28,916 nucleotides of DNA from a virus. Below, piece by piece: positions 5,238 through 27,518 of this stretch. The notes under the pieces were generated by a model. That model made no database searches. It worked only from the letters and a program-made list of their open reading frames with translations, and was not told where the DNA came from. Both the position numbers and the translations under genes were made by a program. The first letter of the stretch is position 1; each line of letters starts with the position of its first letter. The stretch spans positions 1 to 28,916 of the IMG/VR virus record IMGVR_UViG_3300037963_004137; one strand, given 5' to 3'.

Positions 5238-7426
5238 TTCAAGACACTTATCAGACTCCGTTAGCCGGAGGCGTTGCGACCAGACTTCCGCAGAATCCGC
5301 AAGACGCGAACGTCTGTCAAAATCTAACGGTCGACAAAGCGACCGGCGGATGGTCGACACGCATCGGATATGAACAGTTCAAGACAGGGTCTTCGACTTG
5401 GTCTCCCTTTACGAACTGCGGTCCGGTGTACGCTGTCCACGCCGCTCAGAATCTCGCTTCAGGCGCTCGACAGTCGATCCTGTTCGAGGAGAAGGGGAAC
5501 CTTCATCTTCTGTACGATTCCGGCGGTCTGGTATCCCTGCGGACGATTCGCACCGGTCGCAGCGTTCCGACTGCAACGTCCGCCGGGTCCTGGTTCACGG
5601 ATACGCCTTATGGCACTGTTGTAACCAACGGCGTCGACCGTCCGATCCTGGTCTATCCATGGCCAGCTCCACAGTCCGCCTTCGTTATTCCGACTGGATT
5701 CGCGCGTCCGTTCGGATTCGATGGTCTTCCGGCTCCGGTTGACCCGTATAAGGTCGTCCCGATGCCTCGCTCAAGCGGAGCCGGAATCTTTTATGATCCG
5801 CAAGCCGGAGGAGGCGCGGTAACTCTGTGGTGTCCGAAAGATACAGCCGCGATCCCGTCCGGCGGTCAATGGGGACTTGGACTCGCGAACAATGTATCCG
5901 GGACAGATCGAGACAAGTCATCGATCTTTGGATGGTCGGTCGCCTTCATTAGCGACACCGGCTCCGAGGGACCGTCTTCTCCGCTGTCCTCTGCGACTTG
6001 GTCCATTCCAGGAGAGACCGGAGCTGGAGGGGACGGCGGCGCTGGATGGAGACATGCGTGTCTCTTGGACATTCCAATCGGACCGGACGGAACGGTCGCT
6101 CGAAAGCTGTACAGGACGACAAATTACAGCGACGATTATGTTTCACAGGGAGATACCACGCTGTATTTTCTGGACGTGATTCGAAACAATGTCGAGTCCC
6201 AGTTCTTCGACGCAATCGCAACCGCAGCGCTCGGACAACCGGCTCCCGATATTGCGACCGGTCCGCTTCCAGCGCCTGCGGCTCGGTTCTCCGCGCTGTA
6301 TAGCGGCTGTCTGTTCCTGGACGGAGGAATCGAAGACGGTCGAACGCTGTACTTCTCTGCGGCTGGTCTGATCGAGCAGTTCGACGCCGCGAGCTATATC
6401 GAGCTATCATCACAAGGCGGAATGGTCACCGCTTTGTATGCTCATTATACGGATCTCCTGGTCTTCCGAGAGAACGGAATCGACGTCGTTCGAGGAAGCT
6501 ACACAGCCGGGTTCACAGTGACAACCCTGTCGAACTCTGTCACCTGTCGCGCGCCGCATTCCATCGAAACGATTCCAGGACTCGGAGTCGTTTTCCTCGG
6601 TCAAGACGGAATCTATGCAACGACTGGAGGACTGGAAGGAGGCGCGGTCTCCGATCTGGTAAACCTCACAGTCGCGCAAGACGATCTAATCCAGCGAATC
6701 ACGCCGGACTGTCACCCGAAAGCGGTCGCGACCTTCTCCGCAGAGCTTCGAGAGTATCAGCTATATGTCCCAGCGGACGGAAGCGATCGACCGTCGCTCG
6801 GACTGGTCTTCCATATTGACCGATTAGGTCAAGCGGACCAGCTGTCGCCATGGTCGACCCGACTCGGATTCCCAGTCGGAGCGGTCTCGACCCTTTACGA
6901 TGGAACAGTGATCTTCGGACATAACGTCGGAGATGAAGCAGGAGGAAGCGACTCCGAGCGCGGTCTCTTTATTATTAGCAAGAAACGAGCGCTCGGATCG
7001 AGCATCGTCGACGACGTTATGACAGACAACGCGCCTCCAACGTCGATATATCGCTCCGCGTGGTGGTCCGCAGGCGATCCGCAGGTTCAAAAACAGGTCT
7101 CATATGTCACCGTGTGGCTACTCACGACCGGCGGTCCGCTGGTTACCATGCGCCACTTTAAAGACTTCCAGCTTACTCCGGTCTCCGAGAGGACATACAC
7201 AGCGCAACCGCCGGACGCGACTCCGCTTCCAGAACTGGACAGCGTCGTCCTCGGCTCTGCAGATTATCGAAAGGAGCGGCTTGTCCCGCTGCGGTTCTCT
7301 GTCGCGCATATGTCTGCGGCGTGGTTCTGCTTCGAGCTGGAGACCACAGAGGATCTAATCATCGTCGGATATGAGTACACATACACGACTAAGGGAACCA
7401 TGGTCGTTCAAGGACCTCGATCATGA
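5234..7426 (+). CDS. Tail nozzle (tail tubular B-like) protein (730 aa)
   Basis: This protein has the size and motifs of the podovirus nozzle, a beta-propeller protein forming the distal tail tube. The N-terminus carries the typical QTPLAGGVATRLPQNPQDA stretch, with phrases such as NLTVDKATGGWSTRIGYEQF. The middle has the propeller-like LYAHYTDLLVFRENGIDVV and GLGVVFLGQDGIYATTGG (about residues 395-460), recognisable in this family as the blade where the tail protein reports a readiness loop. The start overlaps the adaptor stop and the end overlaps the next start (ATGA each), so translation is coupled. Nozzles contact tail fibres and close the DNA channel before ejection. Confidence 0.85.
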   Translation: MIQDTYQTPLAGGVATRLPQNPQDANVCQNLTVDKATGGWSTRIGYEQFKTGSSTWSPFTNCGPVYAVHAAQNLASGARQSILFEEKGNLHLLYDSGGLVSLRTIRTGRSVPTATSAGSWFTDTPYGTVVTNGVDRPILVYPWPAPQSAFVIPTGFARPFGFDGLPAPVDPYKVVPMPRSSGAGIFYDPQAGGGAVTLWCPKDTAAIPSGGQWGLGLANNVSGTDRDKSSIFGWSVAFISDTGSEGPSSPLSSATWSIPGETGAGGDGGAGWRHACLLDIPIGPDGTVARKLYRTTNYSDDYVSQGDTTLYFLDVIRNNVESQFFDAIATAALGQPAPDIATGPLPAPAARFSALYSGCLFLDGGIEDGRTLYFSAAGLIEQFDAASYIELSSQGGMVTALYAHYTDLLVFRENGIDVVRGSYTAGFTVTTLSNSVTCRAPHSIETIPGLGVVFLGQDGIYATTGGLEGGAVSDLVNLTVAQDDLIQRITPDCHPKAVATFSAELREYQLYVPADGSDRPSLGLVFHIDRLGQADQLSPWSTRLGFPVGAVSTLYDGTVIFGHNVGDEAGGSDSERGLFIISKKRALGSSIVDDVMTDNAPPTSIYRSAWWSAGDPQVQKQVSYVTVWLLTTGGPLVTMRHFKDFQLTPVSERTYTAQPPDATPLPELDSVVLGSADYRKERLVPLRFSVAHMSAAWFCFELETTEDLIIVGYEYTYTTKGTMVVQGPRS

Positions 7427-9014: not shown

Positions 9015-9110
9015 ATGCTTAGACCCTTGCGAATGCTGTGGACAGGTGATTCCTTTAATTATAAAAAAGAGAATCACCTGTCCACGCCGTTCTCCGGTTT
9101 GGAGGCTTAA
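9015..9110 (+). CDS. Possible 31-aa ORF overlapping dyad A (doubtful)
   Basis: An ATG directly after the stop of the 310-aa gene opens a 31-codon frame ending at TAA 9108-9110. It reads through the whole 48-nt dyad. In the same frame, dyad B near 25126 would encode the same WTG and KKENHLST strings, but this follows from the shared DNA. GAGGG lies about 10 bases upstream, so re-initiation is possible. I rate it low: the conserved part is exactly the inverted repeat arms, which favours a DNA or RNA structure over a peptide. Confidence 0.15.
   Translation: MLRPLRMLWTGDSFNYKKENHLSTPFSGLEA
9038..9085. repeat. 48-nt dyad element, copy A
   Basis: GTGGACAGGTGATTC (9038-9052) and its exact reverse complement (9071-9085) flank an 18-nt A/T-rich spacer. 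The same 48-nt layout occurs at 25126-25173. It lies between two tail genes, ends just before the SD of the 235-aa gene, and has no T tract after either arm, so it is not a standard terminator. A protein-binding site, replication element or stable mRNA hairpin are the options. Confidence 0.9.
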
Positions 9111-9113
9111 GAT

Positions 9114-20124: not shown

Positions 20125-20152
20125 GAACGGCGTTCCACGTGGAACGCCGTTC
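20125..20152. terminator. 28-bp perfect palindrome between convergent operons (terminator; parS-like core)
   Basis: The 28 bases are a perfect inverted repeat centred between 20138 and 20139. As RNA it gives a 12-bp stem with a 4-nt loop on either strand. It lies between the stop of the endolysin (20114) and the stop of the leftward 45-aa ORF (20172), where a bidirectional terminator is expected. T-rich sequence on the leftward side (TGTTTCCC) is weak, and there is none on the rightward side. The central GTTCCACGTGGAAC matches the core of bacterial chromosomal parS sites (consensus TGTTYCACGTGRAACA) except for the outermost bases. Confidence 0.75.
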
Positions 20153-20171: not shown

Positions 20172-20309
20172 TTATCGAGAGCGAAGCAGGTCCGCGACTC
20201 CTGGAACCAAAACAACGACCAGCGCGACTTGATAAAAGAGCGCGACGTCCAGGAGAAAGAACAGGACCGCGAGAAATCCGCAGTAAATCAGATAATCATG
20301 TGTTGTCAT
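20172..20309 (-). CDS. Candidate 45-aa hydrophobic membrane protein
   Basis: On the minus strand ATG 20309 opens a 45-codon frame ending at TAA 20174-20172. GGAG lies 7 bases before the ATG, and the start overlaps the HNH gene's 3' end by 14 bases in another frame, a normal coupling pattern. The product is short and very hydrophobic: MTTHDYLIYCGFLAVLFFLL, one Asp, then VALFYQVALVVVLVPGV, then a polar basic tail (ADLLRSR). It could form one long or two short membrane helices. A small holin-like or membrane-modulating role is possible, but it belongs to the leftward (early) operon, not the lysis block. The SD and the membrane profile are the support; conservation is untested. Confidence 0.5.
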   Translation of the reverse strand: MTTHDYLIYCGFLAVLFFLLDVALFYQVALVVVLVPGVADLLRSR

Positions 20310-20904
20310 TGGTATGCTCCGTCATGATGATAGCTTCGACGCCGTCGCCTTTCTGACCATCGCGGAGATATTCCATGTCTCCGAACCGGTCGATCGCCTC
20401 GAGATATGCGCGCTTCGCATCCTTTGGACACTGGAACGTTCCGAAGTCGTACATCTTCGACTTCTTCTCTCCGTTCTCTGTCACCGTCCGGTGGATGGTC
20501 ACACGATAGGCGACCGCGCCTCCAGCTCGCGGCCGGAGATAGACTCCGCGAAGTCCAGACGAAGACCATGTCTTCCGGTTCTTGGAGTTCTCGGACTTCG
20601 ACGCGATACGGAGATTCCCGATTCGGTTGTCTCGCGTGTCTCCGTTGATATGGTCGACGACCATCGACGGACCGGGATCGCGGTTGTATCGAAGCGACCA
20701 TAGGACGCGATGGAGCGCGAGCCGCTGTCCATCGATGCGAACGCGAGCATATAACGACTTCATTTCTGGAGTGGCTTGAATCACCATACCGGCGCGAACG
20801 GAGCGGTTTACGCGAACTAACGCTGTCAATGTTCCCGCCTCGAAGTCCGGTCGATAGAGTTCGCGAATGCGGTCGATAGGGATCGCGTTGTATTTCCCTC
20901 CCAT
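20296..20904 (-). CDS. HNH endonuclease with AP2-type DNA-binding domain (202 aa)
   Basis: The central HNH motif is complete: HRVLW (H65), then VDHINGDTRDNRIGNLRI with D84, H85 and N93, N97, and SENSKN around N106. A C-terminal AP2-like DNA-binding domain (about 116-172: GLRGVYLRPRAGGAVAYRVT, then FGTFQCPKDAKRAYLEA) follows. This HNH-AP2 order is the common form of free-standing phage homing-type endonucleases. They nick DNA at defined sites and often spread as selfish genes, though some are adopted for phage functions. The ATG at 20904 overlaps the upstream stop (TAATG), and the gene is not inserted into any other gene. Confidence 0.87.
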   Translation of the reverse strand: MGGKYNAIPIDRIRELYRPDFEAGTLTALVRVNRSVRAGMVIQATPEMKSLYARVRIDGQRLALHRVLWSLRYNRDPGPSMVVDHINGDTRDNRIGNLRIASKSENSKNRKTWSSSGLRGVYLRPRAGGAVAYRVTIHRTVTENGEKKSKMYDFGTFQCPKDAKRAYLEAIDRFGDMEYLRDGQKGDGVEAIIMTEHTNDNT

Positions 20905-21736: not shown

Positions 21737-21760
21737 AAGAGCGTCCGGTTGGACACTCTT
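21737..21760 (-). promoter_or_regulatory. Hairpin at the 5' end of the 82-aa gene transcript
   Basis: On the minus strand AAGAGTGTCC and GGACGCTCTT form a 10-bp stem (one G-T pair) with a 4-nt loop, followed by a CCTTCC tract. It sits at or just after the predicted start site of the promoter at 21761-21789. It could also terminate transcripts coming from the primase gene. Confidence 0.5.
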
Positions 21761-21789
21761 TATATATGTCTACCGGTAGACATCGTCAA
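21761..21789 (-). promoter_or_regulatory. Predicted repressible promoter of the 82-aa gene
   Basis: On the minus strand TTGACG (21789-21784) and TATATA (21766-21761) are exactly 17 bp apart, near the sigma70 consensus. The spacer is filled by the palindrome TGTCTACCGGTAGACA, so a bound protein would block RNA polymerase. Predicted start is near 21754. Confidence 0.7.
21766..21783. promoter_or_regulatory. Operator-like palindrome, box 1 (perfect 18 bp)
   Basis: ATGTCTACCGGTAGACAT is a perfect 18-bp inverted repeat. The same box, with one or two changes, occurs at 25031-25048 and 25212-25227. All three lie at predicted promoters, as expected for operators of a phage-encoded repressor. The RHH protein encoded at 24786-25019 is the obvious candidate binder, by inference. 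Confidence 0.75.
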
Positions 21790-21813: not shown

Positions 21814-24723
21814 TTAAGCGACTGCTTCGACGTCCGGTGTATGCGATTCCCAGCGTCGGACCGTCTTTCTCGACAGCTTCGACATTTCTCGAACGCGAGC
21901 GACTGCGAGGAAGTATTCTCGCGTTCTCTGTCCTCGAGGACCGGAGCGTCGTACATCCAGCCGCAGTCCTCCGAGTCCGAGGACGGTCTGGATCATGCGG
22001 AACGGTGTCGCATCCTGTCGCGCGACCAGTCCAGCGGCTTCGAGGTGTGGCTGGACAGCATGGAGGACCAGTTCCCCGGCGGACTGGTCGACCGCGATAC
22101 GTCCCTCCGACTCCTCGAGCCGGAATAGAATGTCGAGCGCCGCTTGCAGGACGCGAGCGCGAGGCATGACAGGACGGAGAGACATAAACGTCTGTTTTGT
22201 CGCGGCGCGAACCTCTGCGGAGGCGAGGAGGACGTCCGCTCCCTTCGCGAGGAGGAGCGTCGCAGCGAAGACCCTCGTTCTTTGCGCGAGCTGGTTCCGC
22301 TTCGTCTTCAGCGCGACGTCCGTTCGAGCTGCGACGTCGCCTCCGGTGTACGCCGCTCCATATACAGAGCGCATCACACCGGCGCGATATGCGTGGTATT
22401 CCTCGAGGGTATCCGCTCCTCCGGTCTCGACCCTCTCGAACTGTCGCTCCGATAGCGGCTCCGCTTTCGCGACAGAGACCGCTTCGTCCAGCTCGCGAGC
22501 GTCGCGAGCCTCGGAGACCGCCTCGGAGAACGGCGCGTCCAGGACGCCGGAGCCTCTCTCGAAGGCGTGTCGCGCTCCGAGATACGCGACAGTCCATCCG
22601 AACCCGGTCTGATACCGCGAGGCGAGCAGGACCGCCTGGAGGCGCGCAAGCCGGACCGCGTCGTCGGAACACATGAAGTCGCTTGCGAGAGACAGAGACC
22701 TCGAGGAGGCTTTAACCATTGCGTTCGCAGCATGGAACCGGCGTCGCGCGTCGCTCATATGTCCTTCCGCTTCGAGCCTCCATCCAGAGACCGGAGCGGA
22801 CTCGACACCGGAAAGATAGATGGTCGGAGTCTTCGGACGTCGGACACGGTGTATCGCCTGCTCAACCATGGGACCGGTCGCGACTTGTCCCCTATTGATC
22901 AGGACATGCACTTCGTCGTAATGCTCCGCGTCAATGCTTACGCCCGTGTTCATCGCGTTGTTATAGATAAGGACGTCCGCGAGGAGCGCTTCCGGTGACA
23001 GGTCGTTCTCTGTGTCGTTGCTCCGGCTGCCGACCACACAGCGGACGGTTCTGTCGGGATAGCGCCGGACCAGGAGGTCCGCGAACCCTTGCGCCGCATA
23101 CCGTCCAGGGATGTACACCGCGAGCCGCTTACCAGCGTCCAGGCGCTTCTTTATCAGTCCTTTGTGTAGCTTGTCAGAGGAGGCAATACAGGTCTCCGCT
23201 CCGCTCTTCGTCCTGGTATACAGTCCCGGTATGTATTGAACTGCGAAGATATGCGGCGCGCTGTCCCAGCTCTCGAAGGAGACCTCCTCGAGTCCATGCT
23301 TCGAGCGGTACGCCGCGACGTCTTCGAGGAGGCGCGCTGTCGCGGTCCCTATATGCGCGTCGCAGAGCATGACACGACCGGCATGCGCGACCGCATAAAT
23401 TAACAGATTGTAAACCTCTCGCGCGCGCTCCGCCTTCATCATTCCATGAAGCTGCTGAAGACATGCTTCGACTTCGTCGATCTGGAGGAGCGTTCTCCGC
23501 AGGAGTTCCGGTCGCGCGCCTCCGATCTTCCGAGGAAGCGACGCGAGACAACAGGCGACCGACTCCGAGCGGAGGACAATGCTCGAAGACGCTTCGCCGT
23601 GTCCGATGTCGAGCCGCTTCGCAAGCTGTCGCGCGAGCGCCTTCGTCGGACACAGCGCGAGCGTTCTCCGGTGATATGCGCCGCGAGGAGACCAGTCCTT
23701 CCGCTCGCGTTCCATAAGCCACGTCTTACCGGAGCCGGTCCGCGTTCCAATCACGACGCGGTCCGGTATGGTATCTGGCCAGCGGGCGCGACCGTCGCGG
23801 TCGAGGGAGATTCGGACGACGCCGGAGTCCAGCCGCTTCGACTTCGGAATCATAAAACGAGTCTTACAAGAGAAACAAGCGTAATGGTCCGCGTTCATCC
23901 TCTTATATCCAGAACCATCACAGGAGGGACATTGTCCGCGTTCTCCGTCTTGCAGGTCGGGATATCCCGGTCTCCATTCCTCGCGCCTCCACACAGAATA
24001 ACTGTCCTTTGTCCTGGTTCCGCTTGCTTGCGACTTGGAAGGCTTCTTCCGAACAGGTCGCGCCTTGACAGGATAGCGCGCCGCGAGCTGGTCGAAGAAC
24101 GACGCGAGCGCCTCTCCGTCGATATGGTCTTGACCCTGGAGGAGGCGGATACGCTTTCCGGTGTCGCGGTGTCGCTCTCCTGGAACGGGAAAGATACGAG
24201 TTCCGATGTCCTTCGCATCGCGGTCCCAGAACCACGGCCACTCGTTCGACTGATACCAGCGCTTAAGAACAGTCTTCATCGCATCCGGCGACCAGCGGTC
24301 CGACTTCGATCCCATTCCGACCGGAAGCCAGTACAGGAGACAGAATCCCTGTCCGGTATAGATGACACGGTTCGGAGCCGGAAGTCCGAGCGCGGACGCC
24401 TCTCGAACGACCATCGAGACAAGGTCGACCGACTCCATCCAGGACAAGACCTCCGACTCCGTCGCGGCGCGCATTGCGGCTTTCCGCTCCTTCCGAGTCG
24501 CGCCCCAGCGGTCGGAGGCTCCGTCCCAGTCGTACGGATCGACGTCGATCGAGAGTGAACAGGCTCGCAGAAGGTCCGAGGCGCGCATCTTCCGCGACGG
24601 AGCGTCCTTCCGATACCATCCGCCGGACGTAAACCGACAATGATACCTCGACCCCGGTATGGTCCTATATCGTAGCTCTGCGGACTCTGGAGGAGGAGGA
24701 AGAAGTCTGGTTGTGTTATACAT
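21814..24723 (-). CDS. Primase-helicase replication protein: AEP-like primase, zinc ribbon, SF2 helicase (969 aa)
   Basis: Three parts are visible. Residues 1-220 resemble an archaeo-eukaryotic (PrimPol-type) primase: the acidic pair in SIDVDPYDWDG (D60, D62), the YTGQGFCLLYWLP motif (122-134) and DIGTRIFPVPG (172-182). Residues 265-286 form a zinc ribbon (CPSC...CFSC). Residues 320-640 are a superfamily 2 helicase: Walker A GTRTGSGKT (K333), Walker B LLQIDEVEA (D416, E417), and QAIHRVRRP (622-630) as motif VI. The helicase resembles the herpes UL9/origin-binding group found in phage and plasmid replicons. The C-terminal 300 residues are unassigned and may bind DNA. With no DNA polymerase gene here, it probably opens and primes the origin for host polymerase. 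AAAGGA precedes ATG 24723. Confidence 0.88.
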   Translation of the reverse strand: MYNTTRLLPPPPESAELRYRTIPGSRYHCRFTSGGWYRKDAPSRKMRASDLLRACSLSIDVDPYDWDGASDRWGATRKERKAAMRAATESEVLSWMESVDLVSMVVREASALGLPAPNRVIYTGQGFCLLYWLPVGMGSKSDRWSPDAMKTVLKRWYQSNEWPWFWDRDAKDIGTRIFPVPGERHRDTGKRIRLLQGQDHIDGEALASFFDQLAARYPVKARPVRKKPSKSQASGTRTKDSYSVWRREEWRPGYPDLQDGERGQCPSCDGSGYKRMNADHYACFSCKTRFMIPKSKRLDSGVVRISLDRDGRARWPDTIPDRVVIGTRTGSGKTWLMERERKDWSPRGAYHRRTLALCPTKALARQLAKRLDIGHGEASSSIVLRSESVACCLASLPRKIGGARPELLRRTLLQIDEVEACLQQLHGMMKAERAREVYNLLIYAVAHAGRVMLCDAHIGTATARLLEDVAAYRSKHGLEEVSFESWDSAPHIFAVQYIPGLYTRTKSGAETCIASSDKLHKGLIKKRLDAGKRLAVYIPGRYAAQGFADLLVRRYPDRTVRCVVGSRSNDTENDLSPEALLADVLIYNNAMNTGVSIDAEHYDEVHVLINRGQVATGPMVEQAIHRVRRPKTPTIYLSGVESAPVSGWRLEAEGHMSDARRRFHAANAMVKASSRSLSLASDFMCSDDAVRLARLQAVLLASRYQTGFGWTVAYLGARHAFERGSGVLDAPFSEAVSEARDARELDEAVSVAKAEPLSERQFERVETGGADTLEEYHAYRAGVMRSVYGAAYTGGDVAARTDVALKTKRNQLAQRTRVFAATLLLAKGADVLLASAEVRAATKQTFMSLRPVMPRARVLQAALDILFRLEESEGRIAVDQSAGELVLHAVQPHLEAAGLVARQDATPFRMIQTVLGLGGLRLDVRRSGPRGQRTREYFLAVARVREMSKLSRKTVRRWESHTPDVEAVA

Positions 24724-24753: not shown

Positions 24754-24784
24754 GAAGGGGATCGGAGAGGAACCGATCCCCTTC
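24754..24784. promoter_or_regulatory. 12-bp stem hairpin between RHH and primase genes
   Basis: GAAGGGGATCGG (24754-24765) and CCGATCCCCTTC (24773-24784) pair perfectly around a 7-nt loop. It fills the gap after the RHH stop, and on the minus strand it is followed by TCCTTCCTTC, an AAAGGA SD and ATG 24723. The T-rich flank is on the plus-strand side (TTTACTT), so for leftward mRNA it is better read as a leader or processing structure than as a full terminator. Confidence 0.65.
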
Positions 24785-24785
24785 T

Positions 24786-25019
24786 TTACTTCTGAAACGG
24801 AATCACCTGTCCGGCGTCCTGATCTTGGTCGTTCATTATCCGACGAAGACGCTCCGGCGTCGAACCAGTTAGCCCGGCTTGGATAGACCTCGAGACCCAT
24901 ACTCGGAGAATGCTGTCGCAATAGTCGACGACAGACATTCCAGAGAGGACCGCAGCGAAGCGGATAACTCTCGCGGTTTCATCGCGAACCTGAAGGGAAG
25001 TAAAGCCTTTGGGGGGCAT
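24786..25019 (-). CDS. Ribbon-helix-helix (CopG-like) DNA-binding protein (77 aa)
   Basis: Residues 6-42 fit a ribbon-helix-helix fold: strand FTSLQVRDET, helix ARVIRFAAVLSG, turn with MS, then helix VVDYCDSILRVW. RHH proteins bind DNA as dimers through the strand and usually repress their own promoters or help partition and replication control. The gene is the first of the leftward operon and lies against the divergent control region. GGAG lies 8 bases before ATG 25019 and directly abuts a TGTCTACCGATAGACA box, which fits autoregulation. Its last codons (GQVIPF) contain the 14-nt string GGACAGGTGATTCC shared with the 48-nt dyads. It is probably the early regulator; which DNA motif it binds is not proven. 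Confidence 0.8.
   Translation of the reverse strand: MPPKGFTSLQVRDETARVIRFAAVLSGMSVVDYCDSILRVWVSRSIQAGLTGSTPERLRRIMNDQDQDAGQVIPFQK
24799..24812 (-). repeat. Partial dyad copy inside the RHH gene
   Basis: On the minus strand the 14 bases GGACAGGTGATTCC equal bases 9040-9053 of dyad A. Only one arm is present, within the coding sequence for GQVIP near the C-terminus of the RHH protein. Confidence 0.7.
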
Positions 25020-25030
25020 AATGACACTCC

Positions 25031-25048
25031 ATGTCTACCGATAGACAA
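25031..25048. promoter_or_regulatory. Operator-like box 2, next to the RHH start
   Basis: ATGTCTACCGATAGACAA carries perfect TGTCTA and TAGACA arms around a 4-bp centre. It lies 11 bp upstream of the RHH start codon and overlaps its SD on the minus strand. A bound protein would block initiation of the leftward early operon. Confidence 0.7.
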
Positions 25049-25211: not shown

Positions 25212-25227
25212 GTCTATCGGTAGACAT
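25212..25227. promoter_or_regulatory. Operator-like box 3, overlapping the rightward -35
   Basis: GTCTATCGGTAGACAT is the exact reverse complement of the first 16 bases of box 2. Its right half contains the TAGACA -35 of the late-block promoter, so binding there would repress (or, by contact, activate) that promoter. Confidence 0.7.
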
Positions 25228-25249
25228 TCGAAGAACAGCCCGATATAAT
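25221..25249 (+). promoter_or_regulatory. Predicted rightward (late block) promoter
   Basis: TAGACA at 25221-25226 and a perfect TATAAT at 25244-25249 are 17 bp apart, close to the sigma70 consensus. Start would be near 25256, giving a very short leader containing GGAGG (25256-25260) before ATG 25268. The close fit suggests host RNA polymerase transcribes the late genes, in agreement with the absence of a phage polymerase. Confidence 0.72.
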
Positions 25250-25267: not shown

Positions 25268-25507
25268 ATGGATTGTCCTAAATGTCATGAACCTAAGTCT
25301 CGCGTGGTTTACACCCGGCGCGCGCTGTCGCTCGGAGCTGGTCTGTCTCTCTGTACAGATCTCCCGCGTCCAGACCTCCGCGTCCGTCGTCGACGCTGTC
25401 TCGGTTGTGATCATCGCTGGTCGACCCTCGAGGTCTCACAGGACTATCTTTCGAGAGTCGTCGTCGACCATGCTCGCGAGGCGGTCTCGATCATGGGTTG
25501 GACATGA
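25268..25507 (+). CDS. NrdR-like zinc ribbon protein, candidate late regulator (79 aa)
   Basis: The protein reads CPKC (C3, C6), then SRVVYTRR, then RRRRCLGCDHRWSTLEV (C44, C47). This is the layout of the NrdR zinc ribbon (CPxC...S+V..SR...RRRRxCxxCxxRFTTxE), but the ATP-cone domain of NrdR is absent. Short zinc ribbons of this kind, including the Ogr/Delta group, can act as phage transcription activators. It is the first gene after the rightward promoter, with GGAGG 7 bases before ATG 25268, and its stop overlaps the terminase small subunit ATG. I reject a longer N-terminal extension from 25031, because that would run through the control region and promoter. The activator role is an inference. 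Confidence 0.75.
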   Translation: MDCPKCHEPKSRVVYTRRALSLGAGLSLCTDLPRPDLRVRRRRCLGCDHRWSTLEVSQDYLSRVVVDHAREAVSIMGWT

Positions 25508-25953
25508 AGAGGCGCGGACCAGCGACGACGCTCGAAGGCTTGACCGACCTTCAAAGGCGCGTGGTTCTTTATTGTCTGGAGAACGACGTCGATCCCTGGA
25601 GGGCTGCGGACGCTGGAATCTGTTCTCGAGCGGCTGTCCAGAAATGGAAGATCGCGAATGTTCGCGGCTGGATTGAAACGGAGCGACGGTCTCGACCGAA
25701 GACGCTCGACCAGCTCGCGGAAGAAGCGCAAGCCTCGAGGAATGCTCTCCTCTCGCGAGCGATTCGCGTCCTCGAGGACACACTGGAGACCGGAGAAGGC
25801 AACGCGACAGCGGTTCGACTGTCTCAATGGATTATCGAGGGGATTGTCACGCAAGCTGCAACGCCTCGCGAACCGAAGGTCCGCGACGGTTTCCCGAAAC
25901 CAAACCCGGAAGCAGAACTCGCGGACGTCCTTCGACTGGTCCGGCGTAAGTGA
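25504..25953 (+). CDS. Terminase small subunit (149 aa)
   Basis: It lies directly before TerL, with GTGA overlap. The N-terminus (about 10-55) has a helix-turn-helix pattern, LTDLQRRVVLYCLENDVDPW then AADAGICSRAAVQKWK, typical of small terminases that bind the packaging site. The middle is helical (LAEEAQASRNALLSRAIRVL, about 71-90), in the place of the oligomerisation domain, and the basic C-terminus (VRLVRRK-type) would touch TerL. The start is ATG 25504, within the preceding stop (ATGA), rather than the upstream TTG. Small terminases diverge fast, so the call rests on HTH pattern, size and order. Confidence 0.78.
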   Translation: MKRRGPATTLEGLTDLQRRVVLYCLENDVDPWRAADAGICSRAAVQKWKIANVRGWIETERRSRPKTLDQLAEEAQASRNALLSRAIRVLEDTLETGEGNATAVRLSQWIIEGIVTQAATPREPKVRDGFPKPNPEAELADVLRLVRRK

Positions 25954-27518
25954 CCACCTATGTCCCCGGTCGAGTCCCGGTCCGCTTGACGTCGGAAGTT
26001 CGCGAGTTGCTGTCCGACCTGGACACCTTCGCGCGCCTTCACAAGGTCCAGGACAAGGACTCGAAGCGGCTTGTTCCGTTCGAGCCTCTTCCAATGCAGC
26101 GGAAGATTTTCGACGCGGTCTCCGCTGGTTCGAACCGAATCCTGATCGTCAAGGCTCGACAGGTCGCAGCGACAACAGGCGCGAAAATGGCGCTTCATTG
26201 GCTCGCGTACACTACGCCCCACGCCGCTATGCATGCAATCGTGTCCATGCGAGAGGACTCCGCGACGGCTCTCCTGGACGACTCGCGGCGCTGGTTAAGA
26301 GACCCGCCGGAACTTCTACAGAGACCGCTTCGGACGCAAGCTCGAGCGCGCGTTGTATACGATGACACAGGCGCAAGCCTCCAGGCGTTCACGTCCAGGT
26401 CACAGACCGGACTTCGGAGCTTCCAACCGGCCGCAGTTCTGATATCAGAAGCGGCGTACGCTCCCGACCTCGCGGAGACCATCGCGCAAGCGGACGCCGC
26501 AGTCGGAGAGGGTCTCTTGATTGTCGAATCAACCGCGAACAATCCGGCGGACCATTTCGCGAGACTGGTTGCAGGCGCGCCGGAAAATGGCTGGACACTG
26601 CTGTCCATGTATTGGCATGAACATCCAGCTTATTCCGTCGACGCGGGACACGTTCCGCCGGACTTCCTCGAGACCCTCTCCGAAGCGGAACAACAGGAGC
26701 GCGAGCGGTACGACCTAACGCCGGGTCAAGTCTACTGGAGAAGGCGGACAGCTGGTCGCCTCGCGTCCTCCTCGAAGTTCCGGCGCGAGTATCCCGGCTG
26801 TCTGGACGACTGCTTCCTCGATCGTGAGGGAGGATACTTCGAAGAAGCGCTCCTCGCGGACATTCACGTCGTCGAACATTCCCTCCATGGAGACCAGACC
26901 GGCCGCGAGCTGGAGGCTCCGCACCGGTCCGACCGCTATGTAATGGGAGTCGACGTCGGAGGAGGAGTCGGAGGCGACTTCTCGACTATATGCGTTGTGT
27001 CTGTGTCTACGCGACAGCCGGTCTATATGGAGCGCTCGAATACGAAGTCCCCGTCCGCATGGTCTCACCGCGTCGTTCAAGTCGCGAGCCGGTATAACTC
27101 CGCGCTTGTTCTCGCGGAGTCGAACAACCATGGACACGCTCTCCTCCTCGAGCTGAACAACTGCGGTTATCGTCAACAATGGAGGAATCCGAAGGGGAAA
27201 CCCTGGACAACGACGCTCCAGTCCAAGCTCGAAGCCTTCGACACTCTTCGCGAGGCGTTGTCGATCATTCGCATCCTTGACCGAGTGACATGGATGGAGC
27301 TACGGTCCTTGACCATCGCACCGGGAAAGATTGCACCGGAAGCGCCTCGAGGTTCGTACGATGATTGCGCAATCGCTCTCGCGCTCGCTTATCGATGCCT
27401 CCGCGATATCCCTTCTTCCTGGAGAACTTCCGCGTTACAATCCGGTCGAACTCGCATCGATGATCTAATATCAAGCGCAAGAGCGCGACGGATTCGGTCC
27501 TCCTCCCTCCCCTTTTAA
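25950..27518 (+). CDS. Terminase large subunit (522 aa)
   Basis: Both domains are clear. The ATPase has a terminase-type Walker A variant, KARQVAATT (68-76), the Walker B region AVLISEAAY (162-170, with S-E in place of D-E, as in several terminase groups) and the coupling motif ESTANN (193-198). The nuclease domain has VMGVDVGGG (D335) with D343, LVLAESNN (E390) and GSYDDCAIALALA (D471/D472) as metal ligands. The enzyme pumps DNA into the procapsid and cuts the concatemer. The start is GTG 25950, overlapping the TerS stop. The only nearby ATG (25960) is out of frame. The length is usual for phage TerL. I cannot deduce the packaging mode (headful or cos) from this. Confidence 0.93.
   Translation: MTTYVPGRVPVRLTSEVRELLSDLDTFARLHKVQDKDSKRLVPFEPLPMQRKIFDAVSAGSNRILIVKARQVAATTGAKMALHWLAYTTPHAAMHAIVSMREDSATALLDDSRRWLRDPPELLQRPLRTQARARVVYDDTGASLQAFTSRSQTGLRSFQPAAVLISEAAYAPDLAETIAQADAAVGEGLLIVESTANNPADHFARLVAGAPENGWTLLSMYWHEHPAYSVDAGHVPPDFLETLSEAEQQERERYDLTPGQVYWRRRTAGRLASSSKFRREYPGCLDDCFLDREGGYFEEALLADIHVVEHSLHGDQTGRELEAPHRSDRYVMGVDVGGGVGGDFSTICVVSVSTRQPVYMERSNTKSPSAWSHRVVQVASRYNSALVLAESNNHGHALLLELNNCGYRQQWRNPKGKPWTTTLQSKLEAFDTLREALSIIRILDRVTWMELRSLTIAPGKIAPEAPRGSYDDCAIALALAYRCLRDIPSSWRTSALQSGRTRIDDLISSARARRIRSSSLPF

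Follow-up and report, generated by a model that had tools for sequence, protein, structure and literature searches.

Two 48-nt dyads as candidate recognition sites of the replication protein in a small uncultivated podovirus-like phage

Genome organization around the two dyads

The window, namely the whole stretch of DNA analysed here, is the 28,916-base virus record IMGVR_UViG_3300037963_004137. It carries a 112-nt terminal repeat of 98% identity, so the genome measures about 28.8 kb and is probably circular as assembled. It belongs to a small, uncultivated podovirus-like phage, whose terminase, portal, capsid and tail genes lie on the + strand, in addition to a leftward block that encodes an HNH protein and the replication protein Rep. 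No close cultured phage was found among 50,697 phage records, the best terminase match being 27% identical. Relatives were therefore gathered from IMG/VR, comprising 41 loci via the terminase, 80 via a terminase alignment, 16 via a tail protein and 16 via Rep. The features referred to below are the following.

9015..9113, + strand: 99-nt intergenic segment with copy A and a ribosome-binding site, present or absent among close relatives
9038..9085, no strand: copy A, a 48-nt dyad between two late (tail) genes, orthologous to L048 9926-9973 and L049 6804-6851
21814..24723, - strand: Rep, a 969-aa replication protein with an SF2 helicase core (residues ~305-660) and a predicted C-terminal winged helix (residues ~850-960)
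24786..25019, - strand: small 77-aa protein, with relatives in the L007 group at 37-43% identity
25126..25173, no strand: copy B, a 48-nt dyad GTGGACAGGT...ACCTGTCCAC with the AT-rich centre CTTCTATAAAGAAAAAAGAG, in the divergent control region beside rep; candidate replication origin
25221..25249, + strand: sigma-70-like promoter TAGACA-N17-TATAAT, downstream of copy B
25271..25507, + strand: NrdR-like zinc-ribbon protein (PF22811, E 3.9e-8; TIGR00244, E 1.6e-4), which opens the rightward late operon
25498..25953, + strand: putative terminase small subunit (TerS), assigned by position and synteny only; family search without match
25950..27518, + strand: terminase large subunit (PHROG 2, E 7.6e-25), the query for finding relatives

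The 77-aa protein, labelled ribbon-helix-helix in the initial annotation, had no match in family searches. Two perfect hairpins, one between convergent genes (20125-20152) and one after the 77-aa gene (24754-24784), are probably terminators, and a protein with HNH_3 and AP2-like parts (20296-20904) is a probable homing endonuclease. In addition, a palindrome, GTCTACCGATAGAC or GTCTACCGGTAGAC, lies at both divergent starts (25033-25046 and 25212-25225) and ahead of the gene that starts at 21756 (21768-21781). The window contains 12 matches to the GTCTACCGATAGAC type with at most three mismatches, against 2.6 expected, and this palindrome has the appearance of an operator for a phage regulator.

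The two dyads share arms around AT-rich spacers

Both dyads lie where the initial annotation had placed them, and its estimate of about eight mismatches agrees with the eight differences counted across 49 nt (84% identity). It had also ascribed 15-nt outer segments to both copies. This holds for copy A, the arms of which are perfect over 15 nt each and enclose a spacer of 18 nt, but the arms of copy B are perfect over 12 nt, with a spacer of 24 nt; the supposed pairing-neutral AAC bulge in its left arm turned out to be a 2-nt A/A mismatch at positions 13-14. In 200 dinucleotide-preserving shuffles of the window (loop of at most 34), the longest arm was 14 nt (two shuffles) and never 15 nt, with a mean of 0.18 matches having arms of at least 12 nt. 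Exact copies of GGACAGGTGA occur at five places in the window, namely the four dyad arms and one half-site at 24803-24812. The latter, part of GGACAGGTGATTC (24800-24814, - strand) at the 3' end of the 77-aa gene, was set aside as incidental, and L006 does not keep it. Among the AT-richest 40-nt stretches of the genome, the dyad spacers take the second and fourth ranks. GCGAA and TTCGC-like flanks are seen around both dyads.

As previously noted, neither copy has a T-tract terminator, and near copy B there is only an unrelated 5-pair match. No sigma-70-like promoter was found inside or directly beside copy A, and the sole one near copy B is the TAGACA-N17-TATAAT promoter at 25221-25249, downstream of the dyad. 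The GC skew of the window was uninformative and did not point to an origin at either dyad. The arms are not accounted for by DnaA boxes (by eye, 7 of 9 matches at best). Reading the CTATARAGAG centre as a T7-like promoter was also dropped, because this centre is found in both orientations and a non-exhaustive search identified no such polymerase.

Dyads in close and distant relatives

In L006, the orthologue of copy B is in place as a 48-nt dyad (6152-6199), with the core arms kept and the inner bases drifted. The junction segment with copy A is present in the window, L048 and L049, and absent from L050, L051, L052, L053 and others. By its terminase, L052 is as close as L048 and L049, and at this junction 1 nt separates its stop codon from the start codon. 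No single close-relative contig covers both the A and B sites. An exact scan of IMG/VR with the 12-nt arms gave zero matches.

A scan of IMG/VR with 9-nt arms revealed the window's arms in the late operon of L065, L070 and L072, the terminases of which are 68-69% identical. Here the dyad lies between homologues of the window genes 399-893 and 895-1368, which are adjacent in the window. The flanks of the late-operon dyad in L065 (4753-4856) and L072 (5020-5125) hold ACGGCGTTCTC-type motifs that recur next to the dyad of the control region, and the copied module may therefore exceed 48 nt. L067-L069 from the same scan were set aside as an unrelated phage with tandem TGGACAGGGC palindromes (L067 2318-2512).

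At the position of copy B, a dyad was also found in L065, L072, L110, L112, L115, L015, L085, L144 and L145, spanning 43-53 nt across relatives, with arms that differ between lineages. L065, L072, L110 and L144 possess both copies, with a control-region dyad and a late-operon dyad in each genome. L110 and L144 have them at the same two places as L065 and L072 but with different arms: GTGTCCAGGT in A and GTCCACGT in B of L110, and GTGTCCACGT common to both copies of L144. A control-region dyad alone occurs in L112 and L145 (CCAATCCACTAC), L115 (GTGACACGA), L015 and L085, and more weakly in L007 and L011. L015 possesses two such dyads, at 1396-1450 and 1627-1677, 230 nt apart, each with flanks TAACGACAGGC and GCCTGTCGTTA. 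Two further lineages are represented by contigs without the control region: L059 carries other arms in a 48-nt dyad located at the window's A junction, and in L056 a 47-nt dyad lies one gene beyond that junction. The late-operon copy is thus movable, as its gene junction and its presence both change between lineages, a point on which the initial annotation needs correcting. The A-B distance is 12.7 kb in the window and about 5 kb in L065, L110 and L144, so copy A is not a fixed terminus opposite an origin.

The left and right arms within a dyad agree at 8.6 of 9 positions, compared to 3.16 of 9 across lineages. Similarly, the A arms match B of their own genome at 8-10 of 10 positions, versus 2.47 of 10, the chance level, for B of lineages with B alone. 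Region-level shuffles of the control regions gave p <=0.01 for the window, L006, L065, L112, L115 and L015, and 0.015-0.055 for L011 (0.015), L085 and L110; L072 gave 0.035, but the best match there is a different palindrome. All seven late-operon gaps tested gave p <=0.01. By arm score, the control regions of L144 (0.115), L007 (0.465) and G014 (0.705) were not significant. What admitted the L144 dyad was the recurrence of its arms in the late-operon copy of the same genome; arm score alone would not have sufficed. The L007 group, including the complete genome G014, carries Rep of the window's type, yet has mostly weak nested dyads at B, and no copy A was found in it.

Selection on the dyads is well supported, as the arms co-vary across lineages and between the copies within a genome. 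The initial annotation had proposed selection on structure or protein binding, and had tied this to relatives keeping the dyad at both places with compensated arms; L065, L072, L110 and L144 do keep two copies, the arms of which vary with compensation.

Rep and its link to the type of site

By profile comparison, Rep is a homologue of CyRepA1 (NF042913; 97.7 bits, E 7.9e-28, residues 328-812), though not a member, as the score is below the curated cut-off of 200. It also matches PHROG 4913 "replication" (E 3.8e-17) and VP882 RepA (E 1e-4 across 34% of the query), and by these matches shares the helicase region of N15/PY54-type RepA. The score against the herpes origin-binding protein PF02399 (9.8 bits, E 0.26) is under the gathering score of 20. 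A Foldseek search with the Rep model gave HSV-1 UL9 bound to oriS as its first four matches (best E 1.6e-11); upon re-alignment with VIA-align 2, UL9 was level with many other SF2 helicases (Z 17.1), so the Foldseek result backs the helicase class more than UL9 specifically. The full-length model is poor (pLDDT 65, pTM 0.35). The C-terminal part modelled in isolation has a pLDDT of 71.5, and its fold matches are mostly winged-helix DNA-binding proteins, none at a significant E-value.

Residues 889-968 of Rep track the arm class: it is in this segment that lineages with the same arms most surpass those with other arms in their similarity to the window, with a block-permutation p of 0.0022 for two same-arm lineages that are mutually related and an 80-aa segment picked after a first look. 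Moreover, all dyad-bearing lineages with a replication gene on the contig carry Rep of the window's type. The type of site follows the type of Rep, with single dyads accompanying CyRepA1-type Rep and arrays of AGTGCAGGGT or TTTACAATGTAAA accompanying VapE-type proteins. The latter (PF05272, E < 1e-60) are encoded by L013, L016, L108 and L129, in which the sites differ. Symmetric AGTGCAGGGT arrays around a CTATAGAG centre were found in L013, L014, L087, L105, L107 and L108; those at L013 9106-9338 (eight AGTGCAGGGT repeats) and L087 9467-9699 represent another origin candidate. The TTTACAnTGTAAA palindromes of L016 were rejected as counterparts of copies A and B, since they occur at several places in the genome, and are read as ordinary operators. 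No dyad of the A/B kind was found inside rep of the window (21814-24723), copy B being ~400 nt upstream of the rep start.

Alternative functions of the dyads

The initial annotation had listed an operator, a replication site and a packaging site as candidates, among which a site for a replication initiator fits best. The strongest of the alternatives, though still improbable, is a transcriptional operator, at which a regulator (the 77-aa protein, the NrdR-like zinc ribbon or another) would loop or bend the DNA to control the divergent promoters at B and the late operon at A. Copy B does lie between divergent genes and upstream of the late promoter, and a regulator would fit the arm sharing between A and B equally well. 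However, other palindromes look like the operators, GTCTACCGATAGAC in the window (both starts and a third gene) and, in the L007 group, CCACTATATATAGTGG; there is no promoter on the same strand near copy A, and the junction of this copy varies by lineage. Besides, site type follows Rep type, although L016 has such a zinc-ribbon gene together with a VapE-type Rep.

The CCACTATATATAGTGG-type sites stand beside the starts of the zinc-ribbon and small-protein genes (L007 4081-4098, L011 4094-4122), and resemble cellular NrdR boxes. The phage gene encodes only the NrdR-like zinc ribbon, and its product is possibly an NrdR-derived phage regulator.

An RNA element, with the hairpin working in transcripts, e.g. 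in processing, stabilization or antitermination between late genes, is unlikely. As RNA the hairpins are very stable (z -9.7 for copy A, -6.4 and -6.9 for copy B), and copy A is within a co-directional late operon, whereas copy B, between divergent genes and with the late promoter downstream, is probably outside both main transcripts. The arm mismatches include A-C, G-G and T-C besides G-T and favour no consistent strand, the A junction shifts between lineages, and an Rfam search of the window gave no match to any RNA family.

Still less probable is a short mobile repeat of the MITE or REP kind, which would have no function for the phage and would spread the palindrome of the control region to further places. 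It would account for the presence or absence of copy A among close relatives and its differing junctions, but not for arms of both copies that change together over long divergence, nor for the persistence of the control-region copy; in addition, there are about two copies per phage, and the 20-base exact dyad pattern is absent from 84,980 bacterial and archaeal genomes. Least probable is a packaging (pac/cos-like) site read by the small terminase subunit, for although copy B is ~325 nt upstream of the putative terS, late-operon copies would mean a second packaging start, and the VapE-type L016 lacks the dyad with a TerS of 39% identity, compared to 38-45% in the dyad-bearing L110, L144, L065 and L007.

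A model for recognition of the dyads by Rep

We propose, with a probability of roughly 0.6, that the dyads are recognition sites of the phage's own Rep, with an origin-like layout of inverted boxes around an AT-rich unwinding spacer. Several lines of sequence comparison point to this: the A and B arms match within genomes, the arms co-vary, and site type follows Rep type. Furthermore, Rep is homologous to the CyRepA1 plasmid initiators and gave the UL9-oriS matches in Foldseek, residues 889-968 track the arm class, and dyads occur in repA and CyRepA1-type genes (see below). Counting against recognition by Rep are the weak dyads of L007/G014 and of N15, phiKO2 and PY54, the tie of UL9 with other helicases, the poor Rep model and the GC skew.

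In this model, the C-terminal winged helix would place one unit or dimer of Rep on the GTGGACAGGT box of each inverted arm, and the SF2 helicase would melt the AT-rich DNA lying between the arms. Of the two copies, B, located near rep in the control region, would most likely be the replication origin, and copy A, in the late operon, may serve as a second site for Rep, either a second origin or an accessory site in cis. More tentatively, the phage family might use two-site replication, with a fixed origin beside rep and a relocatable origin-like site in the late operon, fast-drifting box specificity, and co-evolution of the sites with the winged helix.

If recognition by Rep is correct, copy B provides a compact candidate origin for an uncultivated phage family and, by extension, for CyRepA1/N15-RepA-type initiators. 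The coordinated box changes would then offer a natural series in which the box-reading residues of the initiator could be sought, and the movable copy A poses the question of whether one small phage has two origins.

Comparison with known origins

The initial annotation knew of no described element with such a layout; similar arrangements are found in HSV oriS and in the dyads within repA of telomere phages. HSV-1 oriS has inverted boxes around an AT-rich spacer, its initiator UL9 is a helicase of the SF2 class that carries a DNA-binding domain at the C-terminus, and the genome has more than one origin copy (PMC12543377). Likewise, the boxes in the window flank an AT-rich spacer of about 18 bp (18 in A and 24 in B), and its Rep is an SF2 helicase with a modelled, predicted C-terminal DNA-binding domain. 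However, the third box and the hairpin rearrangement of oriS were not seen in the window. In addition, Rep has an extra N-terminal part, and HSV-1 infects animals whereas the window is from a phage.

The replicons of N15, PY54, phiKO2 and VP882 share the helicase region with Rep, and their repA genes contain similar dyads, 43-53 nt long and TATA-type at the centre, which lie 187-269 nt before the 3' end. A plasmid of Acinetobacter haemolyticus has a 48-nt dyad with a CTATATATAAG centre inside a CyRepA1-type gene, 406 nt from its end. These dyads are weaker (individual p 0.01-0.105; N15, phiKO2 and PY54 0.075-0.105), and PY54 repA has five further such matches; taken together, they are suggestive of an origin role, though not proof. 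By eye, the PY54 centre ATATAGATATAAG resembles CTATATAGATAGAAG of L007. In N15-type phages the origin is inside repA. For PY54, Ziegelin et al. reportedly narrowed it down in 2005 to 212 bp in the 3' portion of repA. This work on the PY54 origin appears among the references of PMC10612081. By contrast, the dyad of the window lies outside rep, in the control region, which counts against recognition by Rep, and has a second copy elsewhere; compared to the N15-type telomere phages, no protelomerase was noticed among the window's genes.

Among CyRepA1 plasmids, initiation in pSYSA is described with RNAs, both sense and antisense, that lie upstream of rep (PMC9978351, PMC10899382), a difference from the window, as is the score of its Rep against the family (97.7 bits, cut-off 200). 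They are alike in the homologous helicase region and, for the Acinetobacter haemolyticus plasmid, in a dyad of 48 nt. Phage P4 is unlike the window in that its sites are short iterons in arrays and its helicase belongs to another superfamily. Its single primase-helicase initiator, the alpha protein, binds ori1 and crr, and these two distant sites find their likeness in copies A and B.
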